Shown one piece after another: positions 29,069 through 36,273 of a DNA stretch of 47,852 bases. A program made the translations under genes and the position numbers. Numbering within the stretch: the first letter of the stretch is position 1; each line of letters starts with the position of its first letter. The notes beneath the pieces are model-generated. The model ran no database searches, was not told the DNA's origin, and saw only the letters and a list, made by a program, of their open reading frames with translations. This stretch comes from Halolamina pelagica (GTDB taxonomy: Archaea; Halobacteriota; Halobacteria; Halobacteriales; Haloferacaceae), in assembly GCF_900115675.1 (NCBI RefSeq), contig NZ_FOXI01000015.1:1-47852 (forward strand). The letters run 5' to 3'.

Positions 29069-29087
29069 CAGCCAAAAGGGTTGGCTG
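29069..29087. promoter_or_regulatory. Inverted repeat before the glycan cassette
   Basis: CAGCCAA and TTGGCTG form a perfect 7-base inverted repeat with a 5-base loop, ending 14 bases before the ATG at 29102. An AATAAAG box lies just upstream (centre near 29061). That places the repeat between the TATA box and the expected transcription start, a usual place for an archaeal repressor site. It could also fold as a 5' hairpin if transcription starts earlier. Confidence 0.4.
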
Positions 29088-29101
29088 CGGACATCGTATT
29101 A

Positions 29102-29680
29102 ATGAGTGACACCAGTGAAGACGGAATCGAGGTGCATCCAGATGCGTCACTCGGATTCGAATACGACGAGGAGTCCACTGAGCCAGAGGTTGGATCTGGG
29201 GCAACGATTCGGGCGGGGACGATAATATACAACGACGTACATATCGGAGACAGGTTTACCACAGGCCACAACGCGTTAGTTCGAGAACATACAGTAATTG
29301 GCGATAACGTTGTGGTCGGAACGAATACGGTTATTGACGGGGAAAGTAAAATCGGTTCGTCAGTTAGTATGCAGACAGATGTCTACATACCGAGTAACAC
29401 GACTATCCGGGACAACGTATTCCTTGGTCCGAACGCAGTCCTTACGAACGATCGATATCCTGTCCGGAATGACGTCCCGCTTGAAGGACCGACAGTGAAA
29501 GACGGGGTGTCGATTGGCGCGAATGCGACGATCCTACCGGGTCTAACGATTGGGGAGGGAGCGTTCGTGGCAGCGGGAGCGACAGTCACTAGGGATGTAC
29601 CACCCAAGACTCTCGCAGTCGGAACACCGGCCGAACACGAAGAATTACCGGAATCTCTCCAAGGGGAAAACGAAATTTGA
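29102..29680 (+). CDS. WbpD-like UDP-sugar N-acetyltransferase
   Basis: A 192-residue left-handed beta-helix acyltransferase. Hexapeptide repeats run from about residue 28 to 170 (GSGATIRAGTIIYNDVHIGD, then GDNVVVGTNTVIDGESKIGS), with the active-site His region at FTTGHNALVRE. The C-terminal end VGTPAEHEE matches WbpD/QdtC-type sugar acetyltransferases. In the WbpABED pathway this enzyme adds acetyl to the 3-amino group of UDP-2-acetamido-3-amino-uronate. It overlaps the aminotransferase start (TTGA), forming the first of four coupled genes. The GC content is lower than in the backbone. Confidence 0.85.
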   Translation: MSDTSEDGIEVHPDASLGFEYDEESTEPEVGSGATIRAGTIIYNDVHIGDRFTTGHNALVREHTVIGDNVVVGTNTVIDGESKIGSSVSMQTDVYIPSNTTIRDNVFLGPNAVLTNDRYPVRNDVPLEGPTVKDGVSIGANATILPGLTIGEGAFVAAGATVTRDVPPKTLAVGTPAEHEELPESLQGENEI

Positions 29681-30750
29681 TACCCATAGCAAATCCCGAT
29701 CTGGGTCCGTCAGAAATCGAGAACGTTGGCGACGTGATTGAGAGCGGTATGATCGCTGATGGACCGCGGGTCCGCGAGTTCGAGGAAGCGTTCGCAGATT
29801 ACTGTGGTACGTCACACGCAGTCGCGACCAATAACGGGACGACCGCACTTCATACTGCGCTTGAAGCCTTAGAGATCGGTGAAGGGGACCGGGTTGTAAC
29901 GACGCCATTCTCGTTCATCGCGAGCAGTAATGCGATTCGGCTCGCGGGAGCAGAGCCAGTTTTTGCAGATATCTCTCGTGAGACGTTTAACCTTGATCCA
30001 GACTCGGTTCGGGAGATCGTCGAAAGTGAAGACGTAGATGCGATTCTCGCGGTACACCTGTATGGGCTGCCCTGCGAGATGGATGCGTTATCTGATATCG
30101 CTGCGGAGCACAACCTCGAATTAATTGAGGATTGTGCGCAGGCTCACGGTGCAACGTATGACGGGCAACGAGTGGGATCGGTTGGCGACGTAGCGTGTTT
30201 TTCGTTTTATCCGACGAAGAACATGACAACTGGCGAGGGCGGAATGCTTACAACTGACGATGAGGCAGTCGCTAACCGGGCGGAAAGCTTCGTGAACCAT
30301 GGTCGACCCCCAGAAGGCGGATACGAACATGTCCGCGTCGGCCACAACTTCCGAATGACGAGTATCGCGGCCGCAATGGGGAGTGAACAACTCCAATCGT
30401 TACCGGGATACTTGTCGAAGCGACAGGCGAATGCGAAACGATTTATGGAGGAAATTGAGACAGATTCGGTACGTACCCCGATTGTGCCGCCCGACCGGAC
30501 ACATGCGTACCATCAGTATACGCTCCTAACGGAGGAGAGAGATGAGTTCCTCAACCATCTCCACGAGAATGAGGTTGGGGCGAAAGTGTACTATCCGACA
30601 TGTATACATCAGCAGCCCGCGTACGAGGAGTTTGATGCTATTGCCCCGGTAGCTGAACGGGTTGCTGATGAAGTCGTTTCAATTCCAGTGCACCCAGCAC
30701 TTTCGCAGGAAGAGGTTTCACAGATTGTTGCGGCAGTAAACGAGTTCTAA
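29677..30750 (+). CDS. DegT/DnrJ/EryC1 aminotransferase (WbpE-like)
   Basis: A 357-residue PLP enzyme. The cofactor Lys is in FSFYPTKNMTTGEGGML (about residue 177), with GTSHAVATNNGTTALHTALE and EDCAQAHGA typical of sugar aminotransferases. The start is a TTG overlapping the stop of the acetyltransferase. In WbpE the reaction is transfer of an amino group from glutamate to the 3-keto sugar made by the oxidoreductase. It is followed after 1 base by the oxidoreductase gene, so the steps of the pathway are encoded side by side. Confidence 0.9.
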   Translation: MIPIANPDLGPSEIENVGDVIESGMIADGPRVREFEEAFADYCGTSHAVATNNGTTALHTALEALEIGEGDRVVTTPFSFIASSNAIRLAGAEPVFADISRETFNLDPDSVREIVESEDVDAILAVHLYGLPCEMDALSDIAAEHNLELIEDCAQAHGATYDGQRVGSVGDVACFSFYPTKNMTTGEGGMLTTDDEAVANRAESFVNHGRPPEGGYEHVRVGHNFRMTSIAAAMGSEQLQSLPGYLSKRQANAKRFMEEIETDSVRTPIVPPDRTHAYHQYTLLTEERDEFLNHLHENEVGAKVYYPTCIHQQPAYEEFDAIAPVAERVADEVVSIPVHPALSQEEVSQIVAAVNEF

Positions 30751-30751
30751 G

Positions 30752-31714
30752 ATGACTGAAAATCAGATTCGAGTAGGCGTTATCGGCGTTGGGAGTATGG
30801 GCCAACACCACGTTCGAGTGTACGAAGAGTTGGACGAGGTAGAGTTAGTTGGTGTTGCAGACGCTGATGCTGAAAGGGCATCTGAGATCGCAGAAGAATA
30901 CGGTACTCGTGCGATAGAGATCCAGACGCTTGTAGAGCACATTGATGCGGTATCGATCGCGGTGCCGACGCCGTACCACTACGAAACGGCGATGACCTGT
31001 ATCGAACACGGCGTCAACGTTCTCATCGAAAAACCAATCGCTGCGTCTAAATCAGAGGGTGAGAAGTTAATTGAGGAAGCAAGATCAAACGATGTGCTCA
31101 TTCAGGTTGGGCATATTGAGCGATTCAATCCGGCCGTAACAGCACTGGACAAGGTCGTAGACAAGGAGGACATTGTCGCTATTCATGCCGAACGCTTAGG
31201 GCCGCCGCCAGAGCGTGAGATACACGACAATGCGGTCATCGATCTGATGATCCACGATGCAGATATTGTCCTCTCTCTGGCTGGCGATGAGCCGACTACC
31301 GTCCAGAGTGCAGGGACACGCGACAACAGATATGCGACGGCGACACTCCAGTTTGAATCCGGCATCGTGGCAACCTTGACTGCAAGTCGGCTCACCCAGC
31401 GGAAGGTTCGGAAGCTACAGATTACGACCGAGGAGAACTTCATTGAGGTAGATTATCTCGACAAGACGATCGACATTTACCGTCGTTCGGTACCGGAGTT
31501 CGTGAAGCATGATTCAGGAGTACAGTATCGTCATGAAAGCGTTATTGAACGTCCGCAGGTAGATAACAACGAGCCACTTAAAGTGGAACTGAGTGAGTTC
31601 CTTGAGGCAGTTCAAAACGGTACAAGACCGCCAGTAAGCGGATCTGACGGGCTCCGTGCGTTTGAGCTTGTGACTGAGATTGACAAAAAAGCAGGCGTGA
31701 AGGTACAAGAATGA
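30752..31714 (+). CDS. Gfo/Idh/MocA oxidoreductase (WbpB-like)
   Basis: A 320-residue NAD(P)-dependent sugar oxidoreductase. The Rossmann motif is GVIGVGSMGQHHVRVYEEL (residues about 8-26), and EKPIAASKSEGEKL contains the family Lys-Pro. HDADIVLSLAGDEP is a typical substrate-side motif. In the WbpABED pathway this enzyme oxidises C3 of UDP-GlcNAcA, handing a 3-keto sugar to the aminotransferase. It overlaps the dehydrogenase by 4 bases (ATGA). Confidence 0.9.
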   Translation: MTENQIRVGVIGVGSMGQHHVRVYEELDEVELVGVADADAERASEIAEEYGTRAIEIQTLVEHIDAVSIAVPTPYHYETAMTCIEHGVNVLIEKPIAASKSEGEKLIEEARSNDVLIQVGHIERFNPAVTALDKVVDKEDIVAIHAERLGPPPEREIHDNAVIDLMIHDADIVLSLAGDEPTTVQSAGTRDNRYATATLQFESGIVATLTASRLTQRKVRKLQITTEENFIEVDYLDKTIDIYRRSVPEFVKHDSGVQYRHESVIERPQVDNNEPLKVELSEFLEAVQNGTRPPVSGSDGLRAFELVTEIDKKAGVKVQE

Positions 31715-33078
31715 GCACGTTATACGATTTAGACGCCACTACCAAAGACAGAACGAAAGTATTCGAATCGGGTGAGATTCCTGTTGCGGTGTATGGACTC
31801 GGGAAGATGGGACTACCACTCGCAGCAGTCTATGCGGAGAATTGCTCGAATGTAATTGGGGTAGACATTGATCCAGAGGTCGTCAACGCAGTTGAGGCAG
31901 GAGATTGCCCGATTTCCGGAGAGCCAGGACTTTCAGCACTTGTTGAGGAGACTGTCAGGGAAGGTTCACTGAGTGCGACTACTAATATCAAAGCGGCTGC
32001 GACTGAATCAGAAATTCATGTCGCTATCGTTCCAACATTACTTGATGATGATCAGAATCCGGATCTGTCTATCCTAAAGTCTTTACTCAAAAAGGTTGGA
32101 GCGCAAATTGATGCTGGTGATGTCGTTTTTATCGAATCTACTGTCCCGCCAGGGGCTTGTCGGGACGAAATTCTTCCATTATTAGAAGAAGCTAGCAGAT
32201 TAAACCGGGGAGAGTTTGGGCTAGCGTTCTGTCCAGAGCGGACTTCGAGCGGACGAGCAATCAAGGACATCACCGGGGCATACCCGAAGGTCGTCGGTGG
32301 AATTGATGAAGCTAGTGCACGGGTTGCTCAAGCCGTATATGAGTCTATTAATGATGCTGGTGTAATTAGAGTTGAAAATGCAACAACAGCGGAGATGGTG
32401 AAGATTACGGAAGGACTGTACCGAGATGTGAATATTGCATTAGTAAATGAATTAGCTTCTGTGGCAGATGACCTACCGGTCAATTTCAGGGAAGTGACGA
32501 GTGCGGCCAGTACCATCCCATTCATTAACGTACATGAGCCGGGTGTCGGGGTCGGTGGACACTGTATCCCGTATTATCCATATTTTGTTATGAACTGGCT
32601 TGAGGGGGACTTTCCCCTCCTCCGATTGGCTCGAGAGCGAAACGATAGAATGCCAGAATTTACTATTGATTGTCTTCAGGACCAACTTGCTAGTGTCGGG
32701 GAGTCCTTAGAAGGATCACGCGTTCTTGTATTAGGTGTCGCCTACAAACCAGGGGTGGCAGAGACACGTGCGACACCAGCAGGGCCGATTATCAATCAAC
32801 TTGTAAAGGCTGGCTCGGAGGTTTTTGTTAGCGATCCAGTATTAGATGATGAAAAAATGGGCGACTTTGGAGGAGAGGTTCTTCCGACGTCCGATATTTT
32901 GAGGATGGATCTCGATGCAGTGGTGATAGTTACTGCTCACGAGGAATTCACTGAAATTGATTGGACTGCATTTGACCCGATGGTTATTATCAACGGACGC
33001 CAATCGATGTCCGTAGATAACGATAAGCATCGCATCTATACGATCGGAAGTGGTCTTGAATCTGAGGGTAACCTATGA
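31711..33078 (+). CDS. UDP-N-acetylglucosamine 6-dehydrogenase (WbpA/WecC-like)
   Basis: A 455-residue nucleotide-sugar dehydrogenase. NAD binding is at VAVYGLGKMGLPLA (residues 25-38), and the catalytic Cys285 is in GVGVGGHCIPYYP. The C-terminal UDP-binding domain has VLVLGVAYKPGVAETRATPA. It oxidises C6 of UDP-GlcNAc (or epimer) to the uronic acid with two NAD. It supplies the substrate for the oxidoreductase, aminotransferase and acetyltransferase upstream, and overlaps the deacetylase-like gene by 4 bases (ATGA). Confidence 0.9.
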   Translation: MSTLYDLDATTKDRTKVFESGEIPVAVYGLGKMGLPLAAVYAENCSNVIGVDIDPEVVNAVEAGDCPISGEPGLSALVEETVREGSLSATTNIKAAATESEIHVAIVPTLLDDDQNPDLSILKSLLKKVGAQIDAGDVVFIESTVPPGACRDEILPLLEEASRLNRGEFGLAFCPERTSSGRAIKDITGAYPKVVGGIDEASARVAQAVYESINDAGVIRVENATTAEMVKITEGLYRDVNIALVNELASVADDLPVNFREVTSAASTIPFINVHEPGVGVGGHCIPYYPYFVMNWLEGDFPLLRLARERNDRMPEFTIDCLQDQLASVGESLEGSRVLVLGVAYKPGVAETRATPAGPIINQLVKAGSEVFVSDPVLDDEKMGDFGGEVLPTSDILRMDLDAVVIVTAHEEFTEIDWTAFDPMVIINGRQSMSVDNDKHRIYTIGSGLESEGNL

Positions 33079-33821
33079 CTGAGGATCCAAGTAATCAGAT
33101 CAAAGGTGGCCAAACACAGTATGAATTCACCTATAGTCGCTACCGCCAATTCCTTAGGGAGTTAATGGAAAAAGGGTTTGAATTTAGTACATATGGAGAT
33201 GATGTTGAAGATGGTGAGATTTTACTTCGCCACGATGTCGACTTATCGCTGGAAAAAGCTGTTACAATGGCCGAAATTGAAGCGTCAGAAGGAGTTCAAT
33301 CTACCTACTTCATATTACTAACCAGCCAGCTATACAACGTTCTCCACACTAAATCACGGGAACGGATTTCGCATATTCAGTCACTTGGACATAATATCGG
33401 CCTGCATTTTAGCACACACCAGTACTACGACCGCGATCCAGGAGAGGAACAGTTGGTTGAGCAGATTAAGGATGAAAGAAGGGTTTTGAATATTGTCACG
33501 GGCTCCCCGATCAAGGCTGTCTCGTTCCACATTCCACCCGAATGGATTTTACGCCGATCTTTCGATGGATTCGTTAGCACATACGAAGAACGGTTCTTTT
33601 CCGACATCCCTTATAGGGGAGACTCAAATCAACGGTGGCGCGAAGATCCCCCATTTGAATCAGGATATCCGGAGAAGGGGCAAGTTCTTGTTCACCCGGG
33701 GCTTTGGGGAGAAGACGATAGACAGTTTGAGGAATGCATCCATGAAACAGTTGATGATATGATAGAATCTGTTGATCAATTTGTATCTCGGCAGTACTTA
33801 GACGATGAATTGTCCGATTAG
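33075..33821 (+). CDS. NodB-like polysaccharide deacetylase-family protein
   Basis: A 248-residue protein of the CE4 fold. The metal site is visible: Asp54 and Asp56 in LLRHDVDLS, and His111 and His115 in IGLHFSTH; STYFIL follows the first motif as in NodB proteins. It overlaps the dehydrogenase gene by 4 bases, so it belongs to the same transcript. By family it should remove an N-acetyl (or similar) group from an amino sugar. No signal peptide is seen, so a cytoplasmic nucleotide-sugar or lipid-linked substrate is more likely than a finished polymer. The exact substrate is inference. Confidence 0.75.
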   Translation: MTEDPSNQIKGGQTQYEFTYSRYRQFLRELMEKGFEFSTYGDDVEDGEILLRHDVDLSLEKAVTMAEIEASEGVQSTYFILLTSQLYNVLHTKSRERISHIQSLGHNIGLHFSTHQYYDRDPGEEQLVEQIKDERRVLNIVTGSPIKAVSFHIPPEWILRRSFDGFVSTYEERFFSDIPYRGDSNQRWREDPPFESGYPEKGQVLVHPGLWGEDDRQFEECIHETVDDMIESVDQFVSRQYLDDELSD

Positions 33822-33867
33822 GACGAGGAGAAAATGCTAATCAGGCCCCAGTACAAGGTTGTATATC

Positions 33868-34872
33868 ATGAGCATACAGAATAATAGAGTTGTATACGCG
33901 GGGTGTACTGAATCCGGATTTGATTTGATGCAGTATATTCATGAGGAGCTGGTACCCGTTGATGAGGTACTGACGCTCACTCCAGAGCAAGGTGAACAAT
34001 ACGGCGTTGCCGGCTACTTTGATTGGTCGGACTATTGTGCAAAAGAGGGAATCAAGGTATACACCCCGGACAAGTATTCCTTAAGCACTGCCGACGTTGC
34101 GCACTACAAGAACAATCCAGGGGATGTGATGATTGTTCATGGTTGGCAGCGGTTGATTCCAGGGGAAGTTCTGAGTAGTTTCAGACGTGGTGCGCTGGGA
34201 CTCCATGGAAGCGCATTTGGCCTTCCGGCGGGTCGCGGGCGCTCTCCGATGAACTGGTCCTTGATTGAGGATCTTGATCGGTTCCTTTTGTCCGTTCTAC
34301 ACCTTGACGAAGGTGCTGATTCTGGTGGGCTTGTTACCACGAAAAAGTTCGATATCACCGATCGGGACACAATCAAGACAATGTACTACAAGTTGATTGT
34401 GGCTGCCCAAGAGATGTTTGAGAACGAGCTAAGAAGTGGCTTAGAGGAGGGTTTCGACGTGACCCCTCAGAAAGGGAAGGCAACCTTCTACCCGAAGCGT
34501 CGGCCAGAGGATGGAGCAATAAACTGGAAGGATCCAACGAAGGTAATTGATAGGCTCATCAGAGCTGTGGCTGAGCCATATCCAGGTGCATTCACCGAGT
34601 ACGAAGGAAAGCGAGTGTTCTTCTGGGAAGCTCAGCCTTTCTCAACTGACTTCGTATTCGATAAACCACCGGGAACGATCGTTCAGGTATTCACTCCCGA
34701 ACGGGATTTCGTCGTCCAAACGTGTGATGGTACCTTACTCGTTACTGACTGGGAAGCTGATAACTGGCACCCAGAAGAGGGAATGACGTTCGATTCCTTG
34801 GAGAACGAGTCGATTGGGAGCCCGAATAGAGTAGACCGACACGATAAAGAAGACCAACTTAGTGATTCCTGA
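33868..34872 (+). CDS. Formyltransferase-fold protein (sugar N-formyltransferase candidate)
   Basis: A 334-residue protein with the methionyl-tRNA/sugar formyltransferase fold. The N-terminal Rossmann region leads to LGLHGSAFGLPAGRGRSPMN (residues 110-129; His113) and DEGADSGGL (Asp151). The usual catalytic Asn-x-His is Gly111-x-His here, so the Asn of the N-H-D triad is missing. A C-terminal domain (about 200-310) resembles the OB-like extension of FMT. It follows the deacetylase after 46 bases. Together they may replace an N-acetyl by an N-formyl group. Start: ATG at 33868 instead of the TTG at 33859. Confidence 0.75.
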   Translation: MSIQNNRVVYAGCTESGFDLMQYIHEELVPVDEVLTLTPEQGEQYGVAGYFDWSDYCAKEGIKVYTPDKYSLSTADVAHYKNNPGDVMIVHGWQRLIPGEVLSSFRRGALGLHGSAFGLPAGRGRSPMNWSLIEDLDRFLLSVLHLDEGADSGGLVTTKKFDITDRDTIKTMYYKLIVAAQEMFENELRSGLEEGFDVTPQKGKATFYPKRRPEDGAINWKDPTKVIDRLIRAVAEPYPGAFTEYEGKRVFFWEAQPFSTDFVFDKPPGTIVQVFTPERDFVVQTCDGTLLVTDWEADNWHPEEGMTFDSLENESIGSPNRVDRHDKEDQLSDS

Positions 34873-34901
34873 TAGATGATGTTCAATCAGCCGCGGTCCT
34901 G

Positions 34902-35981
34902 GTGGTGGATCCAGTGAAAATCCTGTCAGTCGTCGGTGCCCGTCCTCAGTTCGTCAAGGCGTTCGTCGTCTCTGAAGAAGTCCGCACAGAGCACGAAGAG
35001 GTACTCGTTCATACCGGTCAACACTACGATGAAGAACTCTCCGACGTATTCTTCGACAAACTCGGTATTCCAGAGCCGGACTATAATCTCGGCGTAGGTT
35101 CCGGGCCACACGGAGAACAGACTGCGGAGATGATTATCGAAATAGAGCGCCTGATCCAAAAAGAAGATCCCGACGCAATCTTGCTGTATGGGGACACAAA
35201 CTCGACACTAGCTGGAGCAATCGCTGGGTCAAAACTTGATCCTGCAGTTGTACACGTTGAGGCCGGGCTCCGTAGCCACAACCGCGAGATGCCCGAAGAA
35301 ATCAATAGAATCCTCACAGATCACGGTTCCGACCTGCTCCTCGCGCCTAGCCCTGATGCCGTCAACTGTCTCGAAGACGAGGGACAGTCAGAAAGGACTG
35401 TTACGACGGGAGATGTCATGTATGACGCCGTTCTTGAGGTCCGTGAACGGGCTGCAGGAACGTCAGACGTGCTTGATAGGCTGTCGCTGGACCCAGATGA
35501 ATTCATTCTGAGTACAGTCCATCGAGCGAAGAATACCGATGAACGAGATCGCCTCCGATCAATTCTTGAGGCGCTGCGTGACGCCGAGCTTCCTGTCGTA
35601 CTTCCGATTCACCCACGGACGGAATCACGTCTACGAGAATACGAGATGTGGGAGTTCGCAAACGAGTGCGTCGAAATCGTGGATCCACTCGACTACGTCG
35701 ACTTTATCAGACTAATCGACACCGCTGAGCGCGTCGCCACCGACTCCGGTGGAATCCAGAAAGAGGCATTCTTCCTCGATACGTTCTGCGTAACGATGCG
35801 TGACGAAACGGAGTGGGTCGAAACAGTAGATGCCGGATGGAACACGATTGTGGGAGCAGACTACGACGAAATCAGTGATGCATTAGAACGTGACTGGGAG
35901 CAGCCCGCCCAGAAACCAGAGCCGTACGGGGACGGGAACGCTGCAAGAGAGGTCCGAATGGCTCTGGAAACCCACTTATAA
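34902..35981 (+). CDS. UDP-GlcNAc(3NAcA) 2-epimerase (WecB/WbpI-like)
   Basis: A 359-residue non-hydrolysing 2-epimerase. Motifs include VVGARPQFVKAF (residues 10-21), TGQHYDEELSDVFF, LLYGDTNSTLAGAIAG, HVEAGLRS and TDSGGIQKEAFFL. It inverts C2 of a UDP-GlcNAc-type sugar. As the last step after WbpA, B, E and D it would correspond to WbpI and give UDP-ManNAc3NAcA; UDP-GlcNAc itself is the alternative substrate. The gene is more GC-rich than those just upstream, so it may have another origin. A GTG start at 34902 or 34914 is likely. Confidence 0.88.
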   Translation: MVDPVKILSVVGARPQFVKAFVVSEEVRTEHEEVLVHTGQHYDEELSDVFFDKLGIPEPDYNLGVGSGPHGEQTAEMIIEIERLIQKEDPDAILLYGDTNSTLAGAIAGSKLDPAVVHVEAGLRSHNREMPEEINRILTDHGSDLLLAPSPDAVNCLEDEGQSERTVTTGDVMYDAVLEVRERAAGTSDVLDRLSLDPDEFILSTVHRAKNTDERDRLRSILEALRDAELPVVLPIHPRTESRLREYEMWEFANECVEIVDPLDYVDFIRLIDTAERVATDSGGIQKEAFFLDTFCVTMRDETEWVETVDAGWNTIVGADYDEISDALERDWEQPAQKPEPYGDGNAAREVRMALETHL

Positions 35982-36003
35982 CATCCATAACTCTCCAATC
36001 GAC

Positions 36004-36273
36004 CGTCGCATCATCATCGCGGCTCCCGACGACATCCCGAAGGAAGCGTTCTTCCTCAACGTGCCATGTGTTACGCTCTGGGAGGAAACCGAGTGGCCGG
36101 AAACGGTCAACGCCGGGGAGAAGGTCCTCGTCGACGCTGCCCAAGACCCGATTCGAGCAGCACTGGCGAATCCACCGCAATCAACGTTCGACGCAGAGCA
36201 GTATGGTGACGGGAGCCCAGTCAGGAGATTCAATGAGTTCTCGAACGTTACGGTGAATAATTCAGCGTCGTAG
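36004..36273 (+). pseudogene. C-terminal remnant of a second 2-epimerase
   Basis: A frame of about 90 codons directly after the epimerase reads IPKEAFFLNVPCVTLWEETE and later DAEQYGDGSPVRRFNEF. These match the last quarter of the adjacent epimerase (QKEAFFLDTFCVTMRDETEW; PYGDGNAAREV) but with many differences. The N-terminal three quarters are absent. It is a leftover of a diverged 2-epimerase, probably marking a recombination point. Confidence 0.7.

Follow-up and report, generated by a model that had tools for sequence, protein, structure and literature searches.

Why does a gene cluster of the kind that builds diamino-uronic acids carry, between its UDP-sugar dehydrogenase and its 2-epimerase, a putative deacetylase and a formyltransferase homologue (FMT)? 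The question arises from a window of 47,852 nucleotides of the haloarchaeon Halolamina pelagica (genome G000), this being the whole stretch of DNA analysed, in which the genes across 29081-35981 are all encoded on the forward strand:

29081..29680, + strand: WbpD-like hexapeptide N-acetyltransferase (Pfam PF00132, E 1.6e-24)
29677..30750, + strand: WbpE-like DegT/PLP sugar aminotransferase (Pfam PF01041, E 3e-122)
30752..31714, + strand: WbpB-like UDP-GlcNAc 3-dehydrogenase of the Gfo/Idh/MocA type (PF01408)
31711..33078, + strand: WbpA-like UDP-HexNAc 6-dehydrogenase (TIGR03026, 353 bits, above cut-off)
33075..33821, + strand: NodB-like de-N-acetylase, 248 aa, ATG start (D54, D56, H111, H115; AF2 model and PDB fold)
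33868..34872, + strand: ArnA-like N-formyltransferase homologue, FMT, with G114-H116-D154 (PF00551/PF02911)
34902..35981, + strand: WecB/WbpI-like non-hydrolysing UDP-HexNAc(A) 2-epimerase (TIGR00236, 284 bits, above cut-off)

The cluster has a G+C content of 44-54%, compared with 66-67% in the adjacent glmS and epimerase genes. The WbpD acetyltransferase gene overlaps the WbpE gene, and the top NCBIfam match of the WbpB-like protein is NF040723 (UDP-GlcNAc 3-dehydrogenase) at 257 bits, below the cut-off of 450. The preliminary description had the NodB-type gene coupled to the UDP-sugar dehydrogenase gene by a 4-base overlap, and this is the ATGA at 33075-33078, where the dehydrogenase ORF ends. 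A gap of 46 bases separates the NodB-like ORF from the FMT start at ATG 33868, which is the better of two candidates; residue numbers for FMT are counted from the other, TTG 33859. A strong Shine-Dalgarno-like GAGGAG lies in the same region (33834-33884, + strand), followed by an ATG out of the FMT frame that opens a 16-codon ORF overlapping the FMT start. At the other end of the cluster, 3' of wecB, a 127-aa ORF (35890-36273, + strand) matches the C-terminal part of WecB only (PF02350 positions 270-342); on this partial match, it is the remnant of a second epimerase gene.

The NodB-like protein belongs with the CE4/NodB de-N-acetylases by fold more clearly than by family profile. Asp54, Asp56, His111 and His115 occur exactly where the preliminary description had numbered them and are conserved over 31 homologues (H115 in >90%). 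The Pfam polysaccharide deacetylase profile PF01522 scores 20.4 bits, below its curated cut-off of 23.1. The AF2 model (pLDDT 92.6) and a PDB fold search, in which CE4 de-N-acetylases rank first (E 6e-7) at TM-scores of just 0.4-0.5, assign the NodB fold. The metal residues are present, but MT1 reads HDVD, as in ArnD (CE4 motif TFDD), and MT2 reads HFSTH (CE4 motif H(S/T)xxH). In hhalign comparisons with E. coli NodB-superfamily proteins, ArnD was nearest, as a weak match that still exceeds background (E 3.5e-4, probability 37%), followed by YadE (0.095) and PgaB (0.37), with unrelated proteins at 0.03-0.66; the motifs LRxDVD and GLHxxxH are common to ArnD and the NodB-like protein. ArnD (PDB 8t0j) was absent from the best 50 PDB folds for the model. 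No hydrophobic or signal stretch is visible at the N terminus, consistent with the cytoplasmic location that had been proposed. Elsewhere in the family, a paralogue at L110 (9774-10508, - strand) has HDVE in place of HDVD, lacks the metal histidines and is probably inactive; its genome also contains the FMT-NodB pair of L070.

The formyltransferase fold assigned to the protein upstream of the 2-epimerase was borne out, as FMT passes the cut-offs for both Formyl_trans_N (PF00551, 48 bits) and Formyl_trans_C (PF02911, 63 bits), and its nearest solved relative is ArnA (PDB E 1.5e-28); its AF2 model is weak (pLDDT 67). Of the catalytic triad, His116 and Asp154 are kept and N102 of ArnA is replaced by Gly114, which leaves FMT without the Asn-His-Asp (N-H-D) signature of sugar N-formyltransferases. 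By its residues, FMT is a fold variant and no standard member of the ArnA, VioF and WbkC type. The missing triad Asn is no defect private to this protein, because Gly is common to a whole clade: Gly-His-Asp (G-H-D) was found in 31 of 57 FMTs compared, which group together on one side of the tree with a support of 95. The set comprises 20 NodB-linked loci (19 in the tree after removal of a near-duplicate), 10 PIG-L-linked loci, a named Halorussus locus and L080, where the FMT gene lies beside a NodB gene on the opposite strand. A de-N-acetylase, either NodB-like or of the unrelated PIG-L family, is encoded near all 31, and the haloarchaeal N-H-D FMTs compared are mostly near aminotransferases or else stand alone. 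Two extra residues follow HGS in the NodB-linked group. Conserved features are the triad His and Asp, the C-terminal domain and the motif RGRSP(L/M)NW. With Gly in place of the triad Asn across the clade, the textbook mechanism of formyl transfer may not apply, and the definition of this clade opens the mechanistic question to direct test. A folate route to the formyl donor is present in the host, which encodes FolD and further formyltransferase-domain proteins.

Among 292 haloarchaeal genomes, the FMT family (E <1e-70) was found in 19 and close NodB homologues (E <1e-50) in 45. These FMT-bearing genomes, together with the additional Natrinema gelatinilyticum, contain 20 FMT loci, and a NodB gene is adjacent on the same strand in all 20, so the pair is no chance neighbourhood. 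Lack of conserved co-occurrence had been named in advance as grounds for rejecting the exchange, and the opposite was observed, over 11 genera and 4 families among the 292 genomes. The reverse association fails, as 26 genomes encode NodB without an FMT family member. No DegT sugar aminotransferase gene was found within 6 kb of 17 of the 20 pairs (it is present at 3), so the amine for FMT is plausibly supplied by the deacetylase. Many pairs (L066, L069 and L073-L079) stand alone beside a XerC/D-type integrase gene and a DUF5805 gene, outside any sugar cluster, and no linked glycosyltransferases were found at these stand-alone pairs. The same chromosomal setting in L106 contains a lone NodB gene without FMT, and no FMT remnant was found beside it. 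An apparent FMT-NodB fusion in L070 (692-aa ORF) was an ORF-calling artefact; the additional N-terminal stretch comes from an unrelated, Arg-rich frame that matched nothing in Pfam.

NodB homologues without FMT have partners of their own. The commonest is an LpxD-family N-acyltransferase, encoded within 6 kb at 17 loci and directly adjacent at 11, including one case on a plasmid of Sphingomonas; the partners in L082, L127 and L125 score 229.5, 218.2 and 252.2 bits, above the 207 bits that NCBIfam sets for its LpxD subfamily (NF002060). Further neighbours are an ATP-grasp/GT2 cassette (9) and WbqC (6). Distant NodB-like proteins also occur with WbqC (PF08889) at L107, L108, L109, L126 and L128, and WbqC is possibly a further partner type. 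In the NodB tree, the protein of the window and those of L062 and L031 nest within the group partnered by LpxD-family or ATP-grasp proteins, at a distance from the 17 remaining NodBs that have FMT as partner. The pairing does not go back to one origin, since a tree forced to hold all 20 NodBs in one clade was rejected (AU P about 2.7e-50). The FMTs of both NodB lineages form one clade and gene order is opposite between the two sets; the pairing has therefore been re-formed and partners swapped. One of the FMT-paired NodB lineages is otherwise found beside an N-acyltransferase, which argues that FMT takes the re-acylating role.

The N5 of legionaminic acid derives from the 2-acetamido group of UDP-GlcNAc, and 5-N-formyl-legionaminic acid therefore requires an acetyl-to-formyl exchange. 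Among haloarchaea, the sister group of the window's FMT lies in legionaminic acid loci that also encode NeuB and a de-N-acetylase of the PIG-L family, for example in Halorussus caseinilyticus. The sugar itself is part of the S-layer glycan of Halorubrum sp. PV6 (PMC6137143), which contradicts the earlier supposition that N-formyl sugars were undescribed in haloarchaea. L081 matches the PV6 cluster exactly in the lengths of six genes: its legC, legB, legF, legG, FMT and neuD products are 379, 341, 240, 387, 317 and 209 aa, and the PV6 genes, in this same order, are 1139, 1025, 722, 1163, 953 and 629 bp (PMC6137143). L081 encodes a PIG-L de-N-acetylase (PF02585; 11141-11839, - strand) between neuD and legI, the expected place of HrrPV6_1052, a gene that goes unmentioned in the PV6 paper, whose published scheme names no deacetylase (PMC6137143). 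From this counterpart position, we infer that HrrPV6_1052 encodes PIG-L, which likely explains the 5-N-formyl group. L081 thus combines a de-N-acetylase and a G-H-D FMT, exactly what such an exchange needs, and offers a gene-level answer for the origin of the archaeal 5-N-formyl group, which the published pathway does not account for. Two FMTs, one G-H-D and one N-H-D, are encoded in the legionaminic acid loci L112, L113, L114, L115, L116, L118, L119 and L134, and we predict 5,7-di-N-formyl-legionaminic acid as the product of loci with both types.

We consider it probable, on the strength of these gene associations, that the NodB-like protein and FMT form an acetyl-to-formyl exchange module whose substrate would be an N-acetylhexosamine, or the corresponding uronate, in nucleotide-activated form. 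The fold, the metal-binding residues and the partners of the NodB-like enzyme suggest that it would strip an N-acetyl group, most likely the 2-acetamido group, to leave a free amine, which the ArnA-like FMT would then formylate with 10-formyl-tetrahydrofolate; the resulting N-formyl sugar would go into a surface glycan. The predicted product in the window is 2-formamido-3-acetamido-2,3-dideoxy-hexuronic acid. The exchange proposed in the preliminary description thus gains from co-occurrence, from partner swapping with LpxD-family proteins and from the PIG-L plus FMT parallel, and loses on substrate, novelty and the triad Asn. Nothing in the pairs identifies a diamino-uronate as the substrate; because 17 of 20 have no aminotransferase gene within 6 kb, the 2-acetamido group of UDP-HexNAc(A) is the more likely shared target, and the 3-position of the diamino-uronate need not be involved. 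As to novelty, an N-formyl uronate would be new, N-formyl sugars as such are already known in haloarchaea, and no description of a deacetylase plus formyltransferase exchange was found in the literature searched. A wider proposal, on which we are evenly divided, is that N-acyl exchange is modular in haloarchaea, with a NodB lineage served by either an LpxD-family protein or FMT, the G-H-D proteins forming a mechanistic class that functions only alongside NodB-like or PIG-L enzymes, and 5-N-formyl-legionaminic acid among its products. If the exchange is real, it provides a route to N-formyl sugars independent of an aminotransferase and makes haloarchaea with N-formyl surface sugars predictable.

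Three other readings share parts of this evidence. The closeness of FMT to the ArnA transformylase, and of the NodB profile to ArnD, a deformylase, together with the motifs common to the latter two, would suit an Arn-like protect-deprotect sequence, in which FMT formylates an amino sugar nucleotide, a glycosyltransferase loads the lipid carrier and the NodB-like protein deformylates to a free amine. We regard this, the main rival, as unlikely, as aminotransferase genes are not linked to most pairs, nor glycosyltransferase genes to the stand-alone ones, and the model's top folds are CE4 deacetylases rather than ArnD; the 26 genomes with NodB and no FMT, in many of which the gene is beside that of an LpxD-family acyltransferase, make no sense for a deformylase. 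The scarcity of linked aminotransferases also tells against two independent modifications, with FMT formylating the 3-amine made by WbpB and WbpE and the NodB-like enzyme deacetylating another position to a free amine. Both WbpB and WbpE are encoded in the window, other sugar N-formyltransferases use aminotransferase-made amines, and haloarchaeal N-H-D FMTs often adjoin an aminotransferase, yet the dedicated WbpD acetyltransferase overlaps WbpE and FMT without NodB was never found across the 20 FMT loci, so we give this reading very little credence.

The acetyl-to-formyl exchange would also fail if the G-H-D protein transferred no formyl group, using another one-carbon or acyl donor or serving as a non-catalytic partner of the deacetylase. 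Gly for the catalytic Asn in 31 of 31 and, among NodB-linked members, the two extra residues after HGS point in this direction. Against it stand the conservation of the triad His and Asp, the C-terminal domain and the RGRSP(L/M)NW motif, and the N-formyl sugar made by the PV6-type cluster, whose sole FMT type is G-H-D; we find this reading quite improbable.

The flanking wbpD-E-B-A and wecB genes are shared with the Pseudomonas WbpABED/WbpI pathway to UDP-ManNAc3NAcA and the euryarchaeal UDP-GlcNAc3NAc pathway; neither is known to contain an inserted NodB plus FMT pair. GalNFmA of P. aeruginosa is a possible analogue. Bordetella WbmS/WbmT, considered as a possible precedent, was set aside, as their functions are not described in the paper checked. 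ArnA/ArnD of the Ara4N pathway supply the nearest solved FMT and the apparent nearest E. coli relative of the NodB-like protein, but ArnA has N102 where FMT has Gly, an ArnB-like aminotransferase is usually not nearby, and the NodB relatives occur without FMT and with LpxD-family acyltransferases. LpxC/LpxD resemble the proposed logic of the pair, deacetylation and then re-acylation of the same 2-nitrogen on a UDP-hexosamine, and this NodB-like deacetylase family is usually partnered by LpxD-family proteins; unlike in that system, the deacetylase here does not have the LpxC fold, the acylating enzyme in the window is a formyltransferase, and archaea have no lipid A. The pathway of Halorubrum sp. 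PV6 (PMC6137143) is likewise haloarchaeal, with a G-H-D FMT and, in the matching L081, a de-N-acetylase near it; it differs in that the L081 deacetylase is PIG-L and the sugar is a nonulosonic acid.
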